From assembly GCA_946566685.1 (NCBI GenBank), contig CAMNXA010000010.1, positions 1-64,000 of the forward strand: a stretch of 64,000 nt of DNA, read 5' to 3'. The stretch's first letter is position 1. Each line of letters begins with the position of its first letter. A program made the position numbers and the translations under genes. Positions 2,261 through 11,279 of this stretch are shown here, in pieces. The notes below the pieces were generated by a model, which ran no database searches, had not been told where the DNA came from, and saw only the letters and a list, made by a program, of their open reading frames with translations. Source of the stretch: an uncultured Lachnospiraceae bacterium (GTDB taxonomy: Bacteria; Bacillota; Clostridia; Lachnospirales; Lachnospiraceae).

Positions 2261-2478
2261 TTATCTATAATAATCGCTTTACAGAACGTAATTGTTCTAA
2301 AGAGCATATTACATCAGGGGTCTGTTAATAGGATAATGATCCCTTGTCACGCACAATCCATTCAAGGAATTTCAAGTGCGTAACTCAGGCTTTTCGCCGA
2401 ACAATTTCAACACATTTATTTAGGTACAGGCGAAGAGCAGCATATGTTTTCTCTCCTGTACAGACAAAGGAGGAGAAC

Positions 2479-3606
2479 ATGAAATACAAAGAAAATCAGA
2501 ACGAGTCTGCTATTTATCAGGAGGCGGATGTCAGCAGCAAGAGCATTTTTGGCAATCACACATTATGTGCGCAATTTTTACGGGATTATTCTGGCTTGCC
2601 GATACTTGCCAATGTGCAGCCGGAAGATATCGAGGATGTCTCGGAACGGTATCACTTATTCCGAGAAGTGGAACTGCAGGCGGACACCGTAAAGAAGGTG
2701 CGGCTGAGGGATCAAACAGGCGGCAAATTGCAGGATATCTATGTTATCTCGCTTATTGAGCATAAAAGTGAAGTCGACTATGATGTGACCATGCAGATAC
2801 TAAAATATATGATCTGTATCTGGGAGAATTATGTGAGGGAACTGGAAGAAACATCTACGGCAGAACTGGATGGGACACCAAAACAGCACAGGAAGATAAA
2901 TAAGCGCAAAGACTTCCGTTATCCGCCAATCTATCCGATTGTATACTATGAAGGTGCAGGAGAATGGACAGCGGCCCGGTATCTGAAGGATAGGATTCTG
3001 TTGGGGGATTTGTTTGGAGCCTACATACCGGATTTTACCTATAAGCTGGTAAGAACGAGAGGGTATTCTAATGAAGAGTTATTGTCGAGGGAAGACGCGA
3101 TTTCCCTGTTGATGTTACTCAATAAGATTCAGCAGGCGGCAGATTTTCAGGAAATATCTAAGATACCAATGACGCATCTGAACGAAATCTTACAGGATGC
3201 ATCATTAGATGTAGTGGAGATCATTCTCTCTGCGGTGAGGAGCCTGTGCCGGAGATTGAACCTGACGACAGATGAGATGACAGATCTATTAGAGAAGATA
3301 AGAGGTGGCAACATGGGATATTTATGGGAGAACATGGAGAAGATGGATATTCAGTTAGAGCGCCGCAACACAGCAGAGCAGAGGCAGAGGGCAGAAGAGG
3401 CAGAAAAGAAAGCAGAAAGAGCAGAACAGAAAGCAGAGAGGGCGGAACAGGAGAAATCTAATTTATATCGGATTCTTATTACAACCTGTCGGAAACAGGG
3501 AATGAATCAGGAAGAGGTAAGAAAACAGCTGCAATCCGAGACTGGACTGGAAAAAGGTAAAATAGATGAATTATTGGAAAAGTTCTGGGATTGTGATTGC
3601 TGTTGA
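2479..3606 (+). CDS. Rpn-family recombination-promoting nuclease-like protein
   Basis: This 375-residue protein belongs to a different Rpn subgroup from the genes at 2 and 3997. The core YVISLIEHKSEVDYD, followed by MQILKYM, matches the conserved [LV]IEHxS...D...RxxxYM region of the PD-(D/E)XK-type Rpn/YhgA family, with the Glu and Lys of the E-x-K half-motif present. The YPPIYPIVYYEGAGEW stretch is the second conserved block. The C-terminus (about 290-350) is a charged coiled coil with AE(Q/E)KAERAEQ repeats, then a basic end. ATG 2479 is chosen because AAAGGAGGAGAAC precedes it; the frame is open upstream but without a ribosome-binding site. A DNA-cleaving, recombination-linked role is family knowledge; target and activity here are unknown. 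Confidence 0.8.
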   Translation: MKYKENQNESAIYQEADVSSKSIFGNHTLCAQFLRDYSGLPILANVQPEDIEDVSERYHLFREVELQADTVKKVRLRDQTGGKLQDIYVISLIEHKSEVDYDVTMQILKYMICIWENYVRELEETSTAELDGTPKQHRKINKRKDFRYPPIYPIVYYEGAGEWTAARYLKDRILLGDLFGAYIPDFTYKLVRTRGYSNEELLSREDAISLLMLLNKIQQAADFQEISKIPMTHLNEILQDASLDVVEIILSAVRSLCRRLNLTTDEMTDLLEKIRGGNMGYLWENMEKMDIQLERRNTAEQRQRAEEAEKKAERAEQKAERAEQEKSNLYRILITTCRKQGMNQEEVRKQLQSETGLEKGKIDELLEKFWDCDCC

Positions 3607-3942: not shown

Positions 3943-3996
3943 AAGCAGTATCATGAAAGTTATTGTAATGATATGCGGCAGGCCGGAAAGGAGAAC

Positions 3997-4926
3997 ATGG
4001 GAAAACTGGATAGAAAGGACAAACCGTTCTTTTCTAATGCAGAGCGGTTTGCGGAACTTATTAATATTAATCTTTATCAGGGGGACAAGGTTCTTGTTCC
4101 GGAAGACCTTACGCTTTTGCGGAGAAGATATCCTTCACTGGTCGGTGAGTCCGGGGAAAAGGAACGGGATGTGATGATGCTGGATGAGAAACATCATATC
4201 TGTTACGGCTTAGAAATCGAAACGGAGTCTGATTACAGTATGCCGGAGCGGGTATTGGTGTATGATGCCTGTGAATATGAACATCAAATTAGAGCAATAC
4301 ATAAGGAACATATCCGCAGAAAAGATTATAAACATTACCGCGAAAAGAAAAGCAGGATGAAAGAAAGCGATTTCATTCTTCCGGTCATAACAGTGGTGCT
4401 GTATTTGGGAGAAGAAGGTTGGACAGGCAGGAATACACTTTTGCAGATGTTTCATAAAGCTGTCAGGGCAGACAGGCTTTACGAAGCATATATAAAAGGG
4501 TACGATTTTCCATTAATAGAGGTACATAAAGTAGAACCGGAAGACTACCAGACGGATTTACGGGAATTTTTTGAGGCAATGCATTGTAGGGGAGACAGGA
4601 AACGTATGATGCAACTGTTACAGACAGAGCGTTTTCAGAATCTGTCTGATGAAACAGAACAGGCTATAGCGGTGCATCTGTATATGAAAGGACTGATGGA
4701 GAAGATGGAGAAGGAGGGAGCGTCTATGTGTAAGGCGATTAGGGAATGGATGGAGGAAGAGAGAAGAGAGGGGAAAATAGAAGGCGAGAAAGAGGGAAAG
4801 AAAGAGGGAAAAAGAGAAGAAAGGATTCACATTATCAGAAGAATGATAGAAGAGGGACTGGACGAACAGTTCATACGGAAAATAACGCGGTGCACAAAAA
4901 CAGAGTTTGCGGCCGCAGGAAAATGA
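3997..4926 (+). CDS. Rpn-family PD-(D/E)XK nuclease-like protein (paralogue of the first gene)
   Basis: The complete 309-residue form of the gene cut off at the left edge. ATG 3997 follows GGAAAGGAGAAC. The core has RDVMML (candidate Asp) and LEIETESDYSMPERVLVYDA, matching the Rpn-family pattern of an Asp, then an E-x-[QE] pair, then the YxMPxR...YDA block. The ITVVLYLGEE and WTGRNTLLQMF blocks follow. Residues near 265-285 are a Lys/Glu tract with repeated EGK units; the conserved EEGLDEQFIRKIT tail comes last. These genes are often annotated as transposases but show no insertion-sequence ends here. A nuclease role is family inference. Confidence 0.8.
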   Translation: MGKLDRKDKPFFSNAERFAELININLYQGDKVLVPEDLTLLRRRYPSLVGESGEKERDVMMLDEKHHICYGLEIETESDYSMPERVLVYDACEYEHQIRAIHKEHIRRKDYKHYREKKSRMKESDFILPVITVVLYLGEEGWTGRNTLLQMFHKAVRADRLYEAYIKGYDFPLIEVHKVEPEDYQTDLREFFEAMHCRGDRKRMMQLLQTERFQNLSDETEQAIAVHLYMKGLMEKMEKEGASMCKAIREWMEEERREGKIEGEKEGKKEGKREERIHIIRRMIEEGLDEQFIRKITRCTKTEFAAAGK

Positions 4927-5023
4927 ATGAGATAAAAGATTATAAATAGTGATTAAGAGAACTCTCAATGTAAGATATGTAATGGTCTTATGTTGGGAGT
5001 TTTTATTATGAACATACGATATA
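4266..5023 (+). repeat. Direct repeat copy 2 (Rpn gene plus terminator)
   Basis: Second copy of the segment at 2-712. Similarity continues past the stop codon through the terminator and the following ATTATGA-CATACGATAT sequence, showing that a DNA block rather than only a protein family was duplicated. The copies are direct repeats about 4.3 kb apart. Confidence 0.75.
4960..5007 (+). terminator. Rho-independent terminator of the third Rpn gene
   Basis: Arms 4960-4974 and 4987-5001 form a 15-bp stem with G-U pairs, followed by TTTATT. Same structure as at 649-696. Confidence 0.85.
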
Positions 5024-5115
5024 TCATATATTCGGATAACAGGTTCTCATTTCCAAATTGCATGTCTTCCGCTTCCTCGGGATGATTCGGCATATAATCT
5101 TACTGTTAATACTGC

Positions 5116-6075
5116 TCAATTCGATTTATCAGACGGAACTGATACCAATCTGCACAAAAACATAAGAACCGAACATTTTTCGGCAATATAGAAGGCAAGG
5201 TCGCTGTTCAATAAATAGGTTTCCCAATTTGCGACAGCAGTACTCTTAGAGTAGTTCCTGTCAATAAATTCTTTGGACAGCTTAACGATACCCAGCAGAA
5301 GATTGTTCCATTCTATGGGAGTCAATAAAGTTTCTGAGAGTTCCATATCCTGATATGGAGAAAAGATTGACGGATGCAATTCTGAAAAAACATTATCTAT
5401 AATCTGAAATCTAGTAGTGTTGTCCATTCTGCCAGATGTCAACAGCGGTTTGAAAAAATCAAAATAGACAAATTTATTATCCAGATATACTATAAGCTGA
5501 TCAGACAAGGATTCATCTTCCAATATATCCAGTATTTGCTTTATGTCGATGTCTTGTTTCCTGAAATCACAGAGGATATTTAACAGATCGTGATACAGTT
5601 TCTCGATTTCAGCATTGACAGTTACATTTTTCTCTTCGTTTAGCAGACTGCTTACTATGTTGTGCAGATCATGATTGCAATTTTCTTTAAGAAGATTTAT
5701 AGTCTTTTTAGCTTTTGTGATTATAGTTTCGGTAGATTTGGAATGGAAGAATTCTCTGCTCTTTGCAGACTGCTTTTCACTGAGCAGTTCCTGTTCTACA
5801 TACTGGGCTGCGACATCAGTGAGAGAGTAGCATTTTTTGGTTCCGTTTGGGACTGTCAGTATCAAGGGGAGATCTATTTTATTAATTTTTTCAATCATGT
5901 TGCTCAGATTACTTGGTGTTTTGTTTATTTTTTCGCAAAGCGCTTTATGTTGAATACCTGGGGTGTCGGAAATGGTTTTCAGTATTAAAAACCAATCTTT
6001 TGTGAGTCTGGCTTTGATTTTAGCGATCGCATCAGATGTAAGTTGATTATCTGCATTTGTATGATTAATTTCCAT
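5116..6075 (-). CDS. Winged-helix DNA-binding protein, probable regulator of the divergent FRG locus
   Basis: The 319-residue product has an N-terminal winged helix (about residues 18-95): helix, then IQHKALCEKINKTPSNLSNM as the helix-turn-helix, then a wing ending KCYSLTDVAAQYV, in the style of MarR or ArsR folds. The remaining 220 residues are mostly helical with no motif that I recognise and could sense a ligand or partner. The start follows a good ribosome-binding site (AAGGGTGGGAG) and a strong minus-strand promoter at 6111-6139. It is divergent from the 57-codon ORF and the FRG gene, with a dense GTTCA/TGAAC array between, so control of that array is the simplest reading. Base composition is AT-rich compared with the core genes. 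Regulation is inferred, not shown. Confidence 0.65.
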   Translation of the reverse strand: MEINHTNADNQLTSDAIAKIKARLTKDWFLILKTISDTPGIQHKALCEKINKTPSNLSNMIEKINKIDLPLILTVPNGTKKCYSLTDVAAQYVEQELLSEKQSAKSREFFHSKSTETIITKAKKTINLLKENCNHDLHNIVSSLLNEEKNVTVNAEIEKLYHDLLNILCDFRKQDIDIKQILDILEDESLSDQLIVYLDNKFVYFDFFKPLLTSGRMDNTTRFQIIDNVFSELHPSIFSPYQDMELSETLLTPIEWNNLLLGIVKLSKEFIDRNYSKSTAVANWETYLLNSDLAFYIAEKCSVLMFLCRLVSVPSDKSN

Positions 6076-6110
6076 AATTTTGATACTCCCACCCTTATTA
6101 ATATAGTCTG

Positions 6111-6139
6111 ATAATATCAGATAATGAGATGGAATGCAA
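6111..6139 (-). promoter_or_regulatory. SigA promoter of the winged-helix gene
   Basis: Read on the minus strand: TTGCAT (6139-6134), a 17-base spacer, and TATTAT (6116-6111). Transcription would start near 6104, about 29 bases before the start codon. The first GTTCA cluster begins five bases upstream of the -35 box. Confidence 0.65.
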
Positions 6140-6143
6140 GAAA

Positions 6144-6236
6144 GTTCACCATAAGTTCACCGAGATAATGAACATAGTTGTTCACCCAAAAGAGGGAAAG
6201 ATGAACAAATGTGTTCATTGGCGAAAAGATGAACAC
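6144..6236. promoter_or_regulatory. Operator-like array, cluster 1 (seven GTTCA/TGAAC half-sites)
   Basis: GTTCA or its complement TGAAC starts at 6144, 6155, 6169, 6180, 6202, 6213 and 6230. Several intervals are 11 or 22 bases (6144-6155, 6169-6180, 6180-6202, 6202-6213), placing sites on one face of the helix. TGAACA-AATG-TGTTCA at 6202-6217 is a perfect palindrome. The cluster abuts the -35 box of the minus-strand promoter. Confidence 0.65.
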
Positions 6237-6331
6237 ATAGTGCTATTTGAAAAATAAATTCAGGCAAACATTATTTACCTATAAAATATTACGAATTTTT
6301 ATTAAAAAACGATAAAAAGCAGTGGAAATGA

Positions 6332-6360
6332 TTTACAAATCTATAAATATAGTTTATAAT
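6332..6360 (+). promoter_or_regulatory. SigA promoter toward the small ORF and FRG gene
   Basis: TTTACA at 6332-6337, a 17-base spacer and TATAAT at 6355-6360. Transcription would start near 6367, giving a leader of about 205 bases that contains the second half-site cluster. Confidence 0.6.
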
Positions 6361-6435
6361 CCTGTGTAATAAAATTTGTCATTTGGTTTAAAATACGATG
6401 CCAGATGGCGGTTAGCGGCAATATGCGATATTTTT

Positions 6436-6529
6436 GTTCAGAAAGTAAAGTTCACTTGTAAAAGTTCATTACTATTGCCGGCATGTTCACTGATTTTTAA
6501 CAAGTGAATAAGTAAAGTTCATCGTGAAC
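6436..6529. promoter_or_regulatory. Operator-like array, cluster 2 (six GTTCA/TGAAC half-sites)
   Basis: Half-sites start at 6436, 6450, 6464, 6485, 6517 and 6525. The last two form the perfect palindrome GTTCA-TCG-TGAAC (6517-6529), about 40 bases before the small ORF. The cluster lies downstream of the plus-strand promoter at 6332-6360, a position suited to a transcription roadblock, unless another promoter that I could not identify lies closer. Confidence 0.65.
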
Positions 6530-6571
6530 AAAGTATGTTTTGCAGAGTATTAGAGAAAGGAGGAGATAAAG

Positions 6572-6745
6572 TTGAAGCAGTTGGAAAAAAGATATGCTCC
6601 AGGACGGCGCATGAATTCTTTTTTTGTGGACATGCCTTATGTGGAGAATAAAAGGAAGAAGGCATCTGTTGAATCAGGTAATGTTTTAGAATATACATAT
6701 TATATGGATTCGGATGGGAATCTGATCAAAGAAAAATTAAAATAG
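6572..6745 (+). CDS. Small basic protein upstream of the FRG gene
   Basis: A 57-residue ORF starting at TTG 6572, preceded by AAAGGAGGAGATAAAG, one of the strongest ribosome-binding sites in the window, which argues that it is translated. The product is Lys/Arg-rich (MKQLEKRYAPGRR...), with an aromatic middle (LEYTYYMDSDGNL) and a charged end. I do not recognise it. Its stop is 18 bases before the FRG-gene ATG, which has its own GGAGG, so the two are almost certainly cotranscribed. It could be a partner or an inhibitor of the large protein; this is only suggested by position. Confidence 0.6.
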   Translation: MKQLEKRYAPGRRMNSFFVDMPYVENKRKKASVESGNVLEYTYYMDSDGNLIKEKLK

Positions 6746-6763
6746 TCCGGAGGCTTTAAAAAC

Positions 6764-9700
6764 ATGTCGGGATATATCATCGAATTGTATAAAAATATCA
6801 TATCAGATGAAAAGTATTGGACCGAGCAAAGAATCTCAAATTCAGATTTAAAAAACAAGATGTATATAACATTTGGGGAATTTGATAAGATGATGGTGTC
6901 AAGGACCAATGCATTTTCCCGCATGAGGGATGTTTCAAAGATGTCCAAGGACTGGATTGGGGACAGACAGAAGATATTTTTGTTTGAACTTGCAGACTTT
7001 AATCAGTTGGAGTATAGGGAATCAGAAAAGGAATGCGGCTTTTTTTCCAATGATGGTATGGCTTCATCATTGTGTACGAAGTTGTTTCTGGGTATTACGA
7101 TATTCCAGTTGAAAGAGAGTCAGGAAGAAAGCTTGAATGACATCAAAGACACTCTGAAAATCTGCCGCAGGAATATTCTTGAGATTGTTAAGAAGGAAAA
7201 AGTGTCGGTAGAATGTTCGGTTTTTGGAATCTTGGGAACCTATGGTGTGGCTGTTATCTGGGCGGCAGATCAATATACGGATATTTTAAAAATGATCAAC
7301 CGCATCAAAGGTGCTGATATTTTATCAGAAGATGGCAGTGAGCAGCTTGCTTATAAATTTATTTCGGTTTTTACTTTCTTTGTCAAAAATAAAGATGGCC
7401 ACAGCGAGGAAAAGATTGCAAAACTAGAGGGAACAGCATTGCTGCAGATAACGCTGCAGACAAATCTTAGTATGTCGATGCTCCAGGAAATCATGGAGAA
7501 AATTCCGGAATCCAAGAATTTTCATACGGCAGGGGAATATGACTTAATGTTGGAGACACCTGTCAAGTATCTGTATAACTGTTTTGAAAAGGGGGCCATT
7601 TTTGATCCTGCATCAGATTTTTATAAATATCATATTTTGCAGACTAATGTGAAACTTTGCGAATCTGCGACAGAAGATTACCTGAAAGGGATTGAAGAGG
7701 GAAAACCAGATGAGACATTAAAAGAAAAAATAGAAGATGTCAATCATGCAAGACCTCATGTTCCTGAAATTGAGACAAAGTATAGGAAGCTGCGAGAGAT
7801 GTTTTTTGATAAATTTCCCAAGACGGCAGGAATGGTCGATTCTTTAGATTTAATGTATGGAGACTACCATTCCAAGATCGCATTCGTTTCCAACAAAATG
7901 TGGGCAATGGATTACAGTCAGCAGTTCCTGGCAATTTTGACCCTGTTGGAAAGCAGTCTTGATGCAGCTACCACCATGGTGCATGGCAGCATTACCACCT
8001 CGGCTTTTTTGGAGGATATACAAGAAATTTTAAATTGTTTTGAATATCAGACGATTCATATATCAGAATCCAATAATCTGTTATTGAACACGCCAAAGTG
8101 CCATTTGAGTTATACCGGTCAGAATAATCTTGTTCTGTATGCATATTTTGGGATTATGAAGGATCTCATAGAATTTGCATACAGGATGCAGAAGGAAAGC
8201 AGACAGTCCAAGATTATTCCGATGATTTCCGTAGATACTGTTCCTGCAATCAGCAGTTTTTTGTTTATGGACTATGGATCTCCTTTTGAGGATCGACTGA
8301 TCAAGTTTAATTTCCCCATGATGGCGTTATATGCCCTGCCGGTCTATGTCCCTTATCTGTATCATGAAGTCTTTCATTATGTTGCTCCCCGCGACAGGGT
8401 GGTAAGAAATCAGGCCAAAGGATGTATTCTGGCATTTTGTGCTGTGAAAAATGTAATCTGTGAATTGTTGGATTCCGAGAATAATGGTCAGGATTATAAA
8501 ATGGCGCTGGATCTTACCGAGTATGTTTTGAATGGTAGAATTTACAGAGCTGTGGTGAATAAGTATTCCGACCCGCTCGTAGATAAGATCAAAAATGCTT
8601 CCGAAGTCAAATATAATCGTGAGTTGATAAATGCAGAAGGTGCTTCCTGGATACAGTATGAAGAATGCCTTTTTGAATTATTTATGAAGTATGTAGATGA
8701 ACCGGACAAGATAATGCTGTCATCTAATCTGGTTTATGTAATTCTGGATGAATTGTATTGTGCCAGAGAAGAGATTGTGAAAGAATGTCAGGCAATGATT
8801 GACCAGGGTGTCTTTCAGGAAAAAGCTATTGTATTGCTAGGAAATTTTATGACTTCGCTGGAAGGGATATTTAAGAATATTTCTCCGGAAGCAAAATTGA
8901 AAGCGTTTCGGGAGTTCTTTAAGGGAACAGGTAAGTCAGGGGAAGAACTTGTTTGCACAGATGAACTGATACAGATTTCAGATGCCTTAAAGGAGGTAGT
9001 CTGTGATCTGCCGATGATTGAATTGGCAAGATTTGATGTGGTAGCTTATCTGATCACTTATGTGAAGATTCAGAATGACCTCTTGAAGCAGGAAGATTCA
9101 GAAGCGCAGATACAGGATTATATCAGAATTGGTGTTGCGCTGGATTGTTTTTTAAAATGGGATATTGGCAATGCAGAAAAGCAGGATAAACTTGAAGCGT
9201 TGAGGCATGTATTTGTGCAGTCTTATGTGGGTCTGTATTTTAGTGAACAGCAATCTCACAAAGCCAATGGATTGAACGATTATATAAAAAGGATTGATGA
9301 TAAGGCAAACAGGTGGTTTGATAAAATCAAGGGCTGGTATAGAGAATATCTGAAAAGATACCATATATTCAGCAAGCTTATGCAAATTGTTGTGAAACAG
9401 TCCTCTATAAAAGAACGGCTTGAAGAAACAAATTATAAATTGTATGAAAAATTTGAGTGTTTAAAGGTTGCAGAATACCATGATTCGATTCGGTTATATG
9501 GTATAGGAATCTTGAAAGCTGTGAAGACTCCTGGTCTTACGGATGAAGGAAAGAGGGCAGAAATTGCAAAGGTAAAAGAACGTTTCCAAAAAGATGTATT
9601 CGCTTTTAATATCGATATTATCTTAGCGTATCAGAAACAAGAGAATTTTGAAGAACTTGGGAAAATTTGTAAGGATTGTTTTAACGGGAAAGAATTGTAT

Positions 9701-10795
9701 CAATATATAGACGAATTTCCGAAGAAGATGTCGGTGACCTGTGTAAATACCATGTATATAGCAGGGAATAAAACAGATGATGCAAAAGTCTGTAAATACA
9801 CGGTAAGAGATCTTAGCGGATTGTTCCAAACGATTCGAAAGATAGCAGCGGCACTGGAAGATCAGGGGAAAAAGCAGTACGGAGATAAGGGAGATGCTTT
9901 ATGGTATCGCGGGCAGCAGGACAGCGGGTACATACTCTTGCCCTCGGCGATGAGAAAATATGCACAGGGTACAAGAGCTGGGCAGTCTTTGAGGGATTAC
10001 CAGATTGGGGCTTATGGTGAATTTAAGTTCCGGATGGAAAATGCATCGGATAAAATTGATAAAACCGGTTATACGGAATGTGATTATCTTGCGTTGATGC
10101 AGCATTATGGGTCGCCCACAATTTATATGGATTGGTCTGAAAATGCAATTTCAGCTTTGTATTTTGCGTTGGAAGCTTTTATTGATCCTGCAAAAAAGGG
10201 CAATCAGAATGCCAGGGATGCCGTGCTTTATATTATGCACCCTAATCTTTATAATGAGGCCAGAAATAAGATGATGGATCAGGTTACTGTTAAATCAGGA
10301 CGAGCGCTGGATCGTATGATGGAGAATTCCAAGTTAAAAGGTACGAGAAGTCTGCCTAACCTGTCTATGCAGCATCACAGTGGTAATCTTGGAATGTTCT
10401 TGCTGGGAGAAGTAAGAGATGAAAGAGATGTATACGAAGCGCCGTTTGAGAGAATAGAGAGTCTGTCATTGAATCAAGATGCTGAGAATATCCTCTATCT
10501 GCCGCTGGCTATATATGCTTCCAGGGCAAATGCAAGAGTACGGATGCAGAGCGGGATGTTTATGGCATACAATATTTTTACAAAACCAAGTGAAAAGAAA
10601 TATTTTGATTATATGGCATTGGAGAATATACAGGAGTTTTATCTGAAAGCTATTCCGGATGCGATGCCCTTTTTATATGCTATTGTTATTGATGGCAATA
10701 TAAAGAAAGATGTGGCAGAATGGCTGAAAACTATCGGGGTGACTAAGGATATGATTTATCCGGAACTTGCGAATATCGGTGAGAGAATCGGATGA
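6764..10795 (+). CDS. Large HEXXH-motif and FRG-domain protein
   Basis: A 1343-residue soluble-looking protein with no signal peptide or membrane helix. Two recognisable parts: a metalloprotease-like HEVFH (residues 534-538, in LYHEVFHYV) in a long helical N-terminal and central region, and a C-terminal FRG domain from about 1048: YRGQQDSG, then LPSAMRKY, then LALMQHYGSPTIYMDWSENA and ALYFALE, matching the FRG pattern (Y-R-G, QHYGxPT, DW, ALYFA). FRG domains have no settled biochemical function and, from my recall, occur in variable, often defence-related, loci. The zinc site is inferred; candidate third ligands include Glu in the EECLFELF segment about 110 residues on. GGAGG lies 10 bases before ATG 6764. 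Composition is AT-rich, consistent with acquisition. No homologue of the full architecture comes to mind. Confidence 0.75.
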   Translation: MSGYIIELYKNIISDEKYWTEQRISNSDLKNKMYITFGEFDKMMVSRTNAFSRMRDVSKMSKDWIGDRQKIFLFELADFNQLEYRESEKECGFFSNDGMASSLCTKLFLGITIFQLKESQEESLNDIKDTLKICRRNILEIVKKEKVSVECSVFGILGTYGVAVIWAADQYTDILKMINRIKGADILSEDGSEQLAYKFISVFTFFVKNKDGHSEEKIAKLEGTALLQITLQTNLSMSMLQEIMEKIPESKNFHTAGEYDLMLETPVKYLYNCFEKGAIFDPASDFYKYHILQTNVKLCESATEDYLKGIEEGKPDETLKEKIEDVNHARPHVPEIETKYRKLREMFFDKFPKTAGMVDSLDLMYGDYHSKIAFVSNKMWAMDYSQQFLAILTLLESSLDAATTMVHGSITTSAFLEDIQEILNCFEYQTIHISESNNLLLNTPKCHLSYTGQNNLVLYAYFGIMKDLIEFAYRMQKESRQSKIIPMISVDTVPAISSFLFMDYGSPFEDRLIKFNFPMMALYALPVYVPYLYHEVFHYVAPRDRVVRNQAKGCILAFCAVKNVICELLDSENNGQDYKMALDLTEYVLNGRIYRAVVNKYSDPLVDKIKNASEVKYNRELINAEGASWIQYEECLFELFMKYVDEPDKIMLSSNLVYVILDELYCAREEIVKECQAMIDQGVFQEKAIVLLGNFMTSLEGIFKNISPEAKLKAFREFFKGTGKSGEELVCTDELIQISDALKEVVCDLPMIELARFDVVAYLITYVKIQNDLLKQEDSEAQIQDYIRIGVALDCFLKWDIGNAEKQDKLEALRHVFVQSYVGLYFSEQQSHKANGLNDYIKRIDDKANRWFDKIKGWYREYLKRYHIFSKLMQIVVKQSSIKERLEETNYKLYEKFECLKVAEYHDSIRLYGIGILKAVKTPGLTDEGKRAEIAKVKERFQKDVFAFNIDIILAYQKQENFEELGKICKDCFNGKELYQYIDEFPKKMSVTCVNTMYIAGNKTDDAKVCKYTVRDLSGLFQTIRKIAAALEDQGKKQYGDKGDALWYRGQQDSGYILLPSAMRKYAQGTRAGQSLRDYQIGAYGEFKFRMENASDKIDKTGYTECDYLALMQHYGSPTIYMDWSENAISALYFALEAFIDPAKKGNQNARDAVLYIMHPNLYNEARNKMMDQVTVKSGRALDRMMENSKLKGTRSLPNLSMQHHSGNLGMFLLGEVRDERDVYEAPFERIESLSLNQDAENILYLPLAIYASRANARVRMQSGMFMAYNIFTKPSEKKYFDYMALENIQEFYLKAIPDAMPFLYAIVIDGNIKKDVAEWLKTIGVTKDMIYPELANIGERIG

Positions 10796-10837
10796 TATAA
10801 ATTTTTATAGAATCGTAGCGTTCTTTCAACAAAAACT

Positions 10838-10885
10838 CCTCCCTGCTTATGTTATGATTTTACATAAAAAGCAGGGAGGTTTTTT
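10838..10885 (+). terminator. Terminator hairpin overlapping the next gene's ribosome-binding site
   Basis: CCTCCCTGCTT (10838-10848) pairs perfectly with AAGCAGGGAGG (10869-10879), followed by TTTTTT (10880-10885). The 3' arm contains GGGAGG, the ribosome-binding site of the gene starting at 10887, so the terminator stem and translation signal are the same bases. Confidence 0.75.
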
Positions 10886-10886
10886 C

Positions 10887-11279
10887 ATGGAAAGAATAAA
10901 AAATATTTATTGCTGGGATAGCTTGAGGGATTGGTATGATGCGCAGAATATGGGAATAGTCCATATAAAAGCAATACAGGAGAAAGGTGGTATGTTTGAA
11001 TGGAAACAGCTGCTGCACATGATGTATGCGGATTGTTTTCCACAGTGTTTTCTTTGTCTTCGTAAGAATAATGAGAATTATTTACTGTTGACAAAAGAGC
11101 AGGGAGATATGATTGACTTTATCAGTGATAGAATGCCAATACAACAGGAAGGAACCTCGTGCTTTTTTTCGGAGTTTCCGGCAGAATATAGAAGCAAAGT
11201 ATTAAATGCACAAGTGGATTCTATTTGGATTCGACTGGACGAAAATGAAAATATACATGAGGAACAAATTTTTCGGTAG
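10887..11279 (+). CDS. Unknown protein downstream of the FRG gene
   Basis: A 130-residue protein starting MERIKNIYCWDSLRDW. It is Trp- and Cys-containing, acidic toward the C-terminus, with no membrane segment and no motif that I recognise. ATG 10887 is fixed by GGGAGG seven bases upstream; the frame is open further upstream but has no other site. That ribosome-binding site is the 3' arm of a perfect terminator hairpin, so expression should depend on read-through or on the hairpin being opened. It may be the last gene of the FRG locus or an unrelated neighbour. Confidence 0.55.
   Translation: MERIKNIYCWDSLRDWYDAQNMGIVHIKAIQEKGGMFEWKQLLHMMYADCFPQCFLCLRKNNENYLLLTKEQGDMIDFISDRMPIQQEGTSCFFSEFPAEYRSKVLNAQVDSIWIRLDENENIHEEQIFR

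Follow-up and report, generated by a model that had tools for sequence, protein, structure and literature searches.

Our analysis indicates that the thirteen GTTCA/TGAAC half-sites at 6144-6529 of the window (the whole stretch of DNA analysed, 64,000 nucleotides) form the putative operator region of the winged-helix regulator encoded divergently beside them, a reading to which we assign a probability of about 0.65. This regulator would control itself and most likely also set the expression of the operon on the other side, which encodes a small ORF and an FRG-domain protein. GTTCA most likely belongs to the neighbouring regulator, judging from sequence comparison, and the regulator probably controls both its own gene and what is likely a phage-defence operon. 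The genes, promoters and sites of the region are listed here by position.

5116-6075, minus strand: winged-helix regulator, 319 aa, with a MarR/ArsR-like winged helix-turn-helix at residues ~13-105 and a C-terminal part that is all helical in the model
6139-6111, minus strand: likely regulator promoter, TTGCAT-N17-TATTAT, with a weak -35; score 8/12, outside the promoter-scan list
6144-6159, minus strand: direct pair TGAAC-N6-TGAAC with an 11-bp step, 4 bp above the regulator -35 (cluster 1)
6169-6184, both strands: inverted unit TGAACA-N4-TGTTCA, overlooked in the sequence-only reading (cluster 1)
6202-6217, both strands: inverted unit TGAACA-N4-TGTTCA (cluster 1)
6230-6234, minus strand: lone half-site, 12 bp above the weaker promoter-like site of the next line (cluster 1)
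6247-6274, plus strand: weaker promoter-like site, score 9/12
6332-6360, plus strand: likely promoter of the small ORF-FRG operon, TTTACA-N17-TATAAT, score 11/12, between the clusters
6436-6489, plus strand: four direct-order GTTCA half-sites in steps of 14, 14 and 21, in the presumed 5′ untranslated region (cluster 2, part 1)
6517-6529, both strands: outward pair GTTCA-N3-TGAAC (cluster 2, part 2)
6572-6745, plus strand: small ORF, 57 aa, start TTG; 10 of 11 relatives have a recognisable counterpart ahead of the FRG gene
6764-10795, plus strand: 1343-aa protein with a C-terminal FRG domain (Pfam FRG, 1.9e-15; PADLOC PDC-S15, 2e-26) and HExxH at residues 534-538
10884-11279, plus strand: third gene, ~131 aa, its start chosen inside the ORF 10767-11279

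The sequence-only reading had reported thirteen copies of the word in fewer than 400 bases, where chance predicts about one, and all of them were recovered. GTTCA is found on the plus strand at 6144, 6155, 6180, 6213, 6436, 6450, 6464, 6485 and 6517, and on the minus strand (as TGAAC) at 6169, 6202, 6230 and 6525. The steps from site to site are 11, 14, 11, 22, 11 and 17 in cluster 1, 206 between the clusters, and 14, 14, 21, 32 and 8 in cluster 2. The intervals of 11, 14 and 22 bases that had been described are present, and intervals of 8, 17, 21 and 32 also occur. Similarly, the two palindromes that had been called perfect do have perfect arms, but the arms at 6202-6217 are separated by four bases and those at 6517-6529 point outward around three. 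The two inverted units of cluster 1 start 33 bp apart. The half-site slightly exceeds the pentamer, as all 13 copies are preceded by A or T and 12 of the 13 are followed by C or T.

To judge the excess we used 3000 dinucleotide shuffles of the intergenic region 6076-6571 (496 bp), in which 1.13 copies of GTTCA were expected (sd 1.04) and at most six were reached. In the same shuffles no pentamer containing two or more G/C came to more than nine copies, and therefore the excess of GTTCA is no artefact of choosing the word post hoc. Besides GTTCA, only AAAAA (14 copies) reaches thirteen copies in 386 bp anywhere in the window. Over the whole window GTTCA shows no enrichment (98 copies versus 120.7 expected), so the excess is local.

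The FRG-side promoter is the strongest promoter-like site of the region and is located ~100 bp from cluster 1, with cluster 2 lying 76 bp below its -10 box. Since this promoter is flanked by the two clusters, cluster 2 would be transcribed as part of the leader ahead of the small ORF and the FRG gene. A further palindrome, TCTGATA-A-TATCAGA at 6107-6121, spans the -10 box of the regulator promoter; its full match is unique in the window and it is possibly a second operator.

The winged-helix protein proposed at 5116-6075 was confirmed, its DNA-binding domain having a MarR/ArsR-like fold of the MarR-type winged helix-turn-helix. No curated family cut-off of Pfam or NCBIfam was exceeded by the protein, Pfam MarR and HTH_24 both being sub-threshold (for MarR 15.3 bits, E 0.019, against a curated cut-off of 24.6 bits). 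Members of the MarR family are small proteins whose dimer interface is formed by the terminal helices. The regulator, at 319 aa, continues past the winged helix for ~200 residues that are mostly helical, and because of this size and long helical C-terminal part we class it as MarR-like in fold and not as a MarR member. Weak matches were also obtained to PADLOC Csa3 (E 0.0011, residues 30-162 on profile positions 152-278 of 305) and to NCBIfam cas_HTH (15.5 bits, cut-off 60.2). In regulators of the Csa3/CARF type the CARF domain precedes the winged helix; in the present protein the winged helix is N-terminal. A structure model from the single sequence was discarded as too poor (pLDDT 35.9).

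Of 77 genomes of the genus, eight had a match to the regulator, own genome included, and three loci (L098, L099 and L100) encode full-length relatives of 25 to 30% identity. A single-sequence search of the family and class samples gave weak matches in 5 of 397 and 2 of 391 genomes, and a profile of four regulator proteins, which takes in more distant relatives, found members in 19 of 294, the own genome being counted each time. Matches in G001 and G164 were excluded for internal stops, and G149 and G338, distant relatives in other operons, were counted only among the 14 operon heads described below. Close relatives were found in none of the viral contigs, phages, plasmids and genome contigs searched; nor did the four-row profile match any viral contig, or the L100 regulator any plasmid or phage. 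No match to the FRG protein was seen near the regulator relatives (tblastn, E up to 0.01, 19 loci). The regulators of L099 and L100 face a different operon, encoding two proteins of ~185 and ~220 aa, the former presumed to be a membrane protein (7882-9354 in L099, 5622-7131 in L100), and the two partner proteins of L100 had no convincing Pfam match. Another subfamily (L126, L127, L128 and L131) is located in small operons, and in the first three of these an unknown first gene, without a Pfam match in L128, is followed by a gene of ~210 aa. L098 was left out of the site counts because its contig ends ~100 bp above the gene; the end, near 7288-7331, resembles what we take to be a sequencing adapter, so its last bases are probably an assembly artefact. 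Among the titles listed by a literature search on the half-site words, none concerned this regulator family.

Evidence for assigning the word to the regulator comes from the DNA upstream of these relatives. When all 20 upstream stretches were pooled with no selection, GTTCA ranked first of 508 pentamers (29 copies versus 11.41 expected; 0/400 shuffles as high). It also ranked first of 401 (13 versus 3.33; 0/600 shuffles) in the stretches immediately upstream of six relatives' genes (L099, L100, L103, L104, L124 and L125), which were picked after the site counts had been seen. Three further stretches (L129, L131 and L133, with 0, 2 and 1 sites above the gene) also qualify, and with them GTTCA came second of 463, behind CAAAA (16 versus 5.14; 1/400 shuffles as high), and eleventh of 459 once L125 was removed. 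The 14 stretches above presumed operon heads, to which L129 and L131 belong, had 0 to 3 sites each (16 versus 8.2; fifteenth of 503), and without the four L126-type operons the remaining ten, the most distant, were at chance level (7 versus 5.56; 139/400 shuffles as high). Taken together, these ranks indicate that GTTCA accompanies some members of the wider family, chiefly L125 and the L126 type, with no such association in the ten stretches that are most distant.

The carriers of the signal are L125, with five copies in 320 bp (0/2000 shuffles as high), L100, with three in 299 bp (P 0.011), and the four L126-type operons; L124 and L103 had two each (P 0.07 and 0.10) and L104 one (P 0.47). L099 had none, and its count of GTTTA was not above chance (P 0.25). 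L099 and L100 are one locus in two species, in which three half-sites align with equal steps of 29 and 21, reading TGAAC/TGAAC/GTTCA in L100 and TAAAC/TAAAC/GTTTA in L099, with the identical base changed in each half-site. It looks as if protein and sites may have changed together, in a single case that was noticed afterwards. Altogether the comparison supports the view that a half-site (A/T)GTTCA(C/T) goes with the regulator and some of its relatives, and the attribution of the array to the 5116-6075 protein, already made in the sequence-only reading, gains from the presence of the word beside some relatives that have no FRG gene.

A recurring arrangement of sites and promoter points the same way. 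In the four L126-type operons we observed the layout TGAAC-N6-TGAAC-N7-TTGATN-N17-TANAAT. The regulator promoter of the window has the same TGAAC-N6-TGAAC, with a gap to the -35 of 4 and not 7 and with a different -35 box. A general form of the layout, which was read off the four operons themselves (possibly orthologous, and then not independent), occurred among 138 sequences (1.02 Mb, window included) only in these four, in the window and in its copies (L001, L006 and L089). When 59 other letter orders of the pentamer were searched in this layout, two matched, both in the window and its copies. Across 44 genomes, hand-picked from the 77 of the genus, the layout was found in the four discovery genomes and in 2 of the 40 others, the reversed control being found in 3 of 44. 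The proposal that the regulator tunes its own gene is in part supported, by the 11-bp direct pair that abuts the weak -35 box of the regulator's own promoter.

On the other side of the array, the Pfam FRG domain was found at residues 1045-1137 of the 1343-aa protein with 58 bits, against a cut-off of 25. The HExxH motif (8363-8377 of the window) is a metallopeptidase-like signature far from this domain, and its H, E and H are kept in 3 of 3 aligned relatives; the motif was one of two seed patterns in the search, by which the later relatives are biased for it. The search gave 14 loci, of which 12 (L043-L054) match over much of the protein's length and 11 contain the gene start; L048, L055 and L056 were excluded, for lacking the gene start or for matching at the FRG end only. 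In alignments of the small ORF with its counterparts from 10 of the 11 relatives an N is invariant and an F and a Y are nearly so, and in L043 and L044 small ORFs that resemble the third gene by eye follow the FRG gene. Viral contigs contained no FRG relative, phages and plasmids matched at the FRG end only, and no solved structure was related to the protein by sequence. To the left of the locus are three YhgA/Rpn-like ORFs (86-619, 2344-3606 and 3973-4926); the second scores above and the third just below the Pfam Transposase_31 cut-off, and the C-terminal parts of the first and third are near copies by eye. FRG domains belong to the ART superfamily and are proposed, in the accessible text of PMC9503650, to be antiviral effectors with possible NADase or ADP-ribosylating activity. 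The operon is likely a phage-defence operon.

The sequence-only reading had proposed conserved half-sites at related loci as a check, and this expectation failed for the FRG relatives: the array is lacking in 11 of 11, and GTTCA occurs 0 to 2 times in the 500 bp ahead of the small ORF. For L044 this stretch measured 148 bp, and for L051 it was taken ahead of the FRG gene. The regulator was likewise not found near them, by its profile against 439 ORFs of 12 loci, as far as the contigs, some of them short, reach. Relatives lacking the array therefore also lack the regulator within that reach, and they provide no evidence against regulator and array forming one unit.

That the array is bound by a different protein, for instance a host factor or a phage repressor of the CI type, with the neighbouring gene a bystander, appears unlikely. 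The operator OL of phage TP901-1 CI, AGTTCATGAAACGTGAACT, does have the identical half-site word, according to the accessible text of PMC4941734, 10 of the 20 stretches above regulator relatives show no excess, and tandem TGAAC-N6-GTTCA units were seen in 27 viral stretches (L062-L088), many in regular steps of 10 or 11 bp. On the other hand, the word is in excess above several regulator relatives, the scanned neighbouring proteins contain no phage-repressor domain, and the tandem inverted unit was found in 0 of 396 other genomes of the family (reversed control, 4 of 397), so that it is not a family-wide host site. In the own 3.9-Mb genome there are four TGAAC-N6-GTTCA units, two of them in the array (reversed control, two), and a survey of the other GTTCA groups there, covering C4, C6, C15, C16, C23 and C26, found no comparable array, with at most three sites close together. 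The viral arrays lie within ORFs of at least 100 aa in 19 of 27 cases; ten of the loci have one BLAST-linked ORF group in common, in several of them the array-holding ORF, and by eye this group resembles a replication initiator. An iteron-type site for replication or partition would have this regular kind of array inside viral-contig ORFs as its model, some of them replication-like by eye, but the array of the window has irregular steps, lies between genes and, by eye, has no replication gene next to it, and we regard this as the least credible account. A role of cluster 2 in RNA, where GUUCA repeats would belong to a structured 5′ leader instead of being bound by protein on DNA, is hardly more probable. 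A long stem is possible in 6445-6512 (z -2.48; 3/200 shuffles as good), but the presumed leader as a whole (6368-6575, z -0.86) and 6430-6550 (z -0.78) fold no better than shuffles, and 4900-6900 contains no Rfam family beyond one chance-level match elsewhere in that stretch (E 0.49).

If the array is indeed the operator of the regulator, a dimer with winged helices one DNA turn apart would contact half-sites 11 bp apart and read inverted units and direct pairs alike, and several dimers could crowd onto cluster 1 with neighbours cooperating. The direct pair beside the weak -35 box would provide self-control, slightly likelier positive than negative. Because the FRG-side promoter is located between the two clusters, FRG expression is most likely governed by this protein as well, through looping between the clusters, a roadblock at cluster 2 or activation from cluster 1. 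Repression through a loop or a roadblock is a guess that we favour only slightly. It is cluster 2 alone, downstream of the promoter, that suggests the silencing of the FRG operon proposed in the sequence-only reading, and its 14-bp direct steps have no counterpart for comparison. A purely activating regulator, acting on its own gene through 6144-6159 and on the FRG operon through cluster 1, with cluster 2 tempering expression or titrating the protein, is a possible reading to which we give less weight. Sites just above a -35 box are the usual place for activators, and the pair lies there in all five promoter-linked cases (the four operons and the window), ending 4-7 bp away. The weak -35 of the regulator promoter fits this too, as do the sites of L100, which by eye lie upstream of the TTGCAA/TATAAT promoter of its partner operon. 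Against it speak the position of cluster 2 below the FRG-side promoter, and that promoter's score of 11/12 and distance of ~100 bp from cluster 1.

Extending the preferred operator reading, one may imagine an undescribed family of long MarR-fold regulators in this genus that read a five-base half-site in any order (direct, inward or outward), control themselves positively from a direct pair above a weak -35 and were attached locus by locus to differing partner operons, the sites here having multiplied to 13 in two clusters and making a sharp looped on/off switch around a defence-effector promoter; this wider picture is speculative and, as a whole, rather doubtful. Through comparison alone, an unnamed regulator family is given a likely binding word, and a ready-made test system is offered, in which the copy number of the word ranges from 2 to 13 and protein and sites may have changed together in one pair of loci. 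It also suggests how a probable phage-defence effector stays under local control. Were that control positive and not silencing, the usual view of a repressor guarding a toxin would be wrong at this locus.

With MarR-type autoregulators the locus has the divergent control region in common. MarR proteins usually have one or two palindromes; here, unlike that type, a longer protein with an extended helical C-terminal part faces 13 half-sites in mixed order. OmpR/PhoB-type response regulators bind 11-bp direct pairs just above the -35 box, and such a pair is also seen at the array, but by Pfam scan the regulator has no receiver domain, and its winged helix was matched to MarR and ArsR chains. TP901-1 CI, a phage repressor, has a helix-turn-helix of a different kind. 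Its half-site AGTTCA(C/T) and the location of its operators at a divergent-promoter switch, as far as the accessible text of PMC4941734 and PMC7250872 describes them, are like those of the array, while the two half-sites of OL point outward around 7 bases and the pairs of the array are mostly inward or direct. Proteins of PADLOC PDC-S15 and other FRG-domain proteins have the C-terminal FRG domain in common with the large protein of the operon; unlike PDC-S15, that protein has about a thousand further residues with HExxH and a conserved small ORF in front, and it is accompanied by a divergent regulator that the search of 12 related loci did not find. Regulators that adjoin their own operators are ordinary, and the new elements here are the unnamed regulator family with its assigned word, and an array of such size and with its sites in such mixed order. 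We view the system as ordinary in kind, a self-controlling regulator that acts locally and whose array of half-sites is unusually large.
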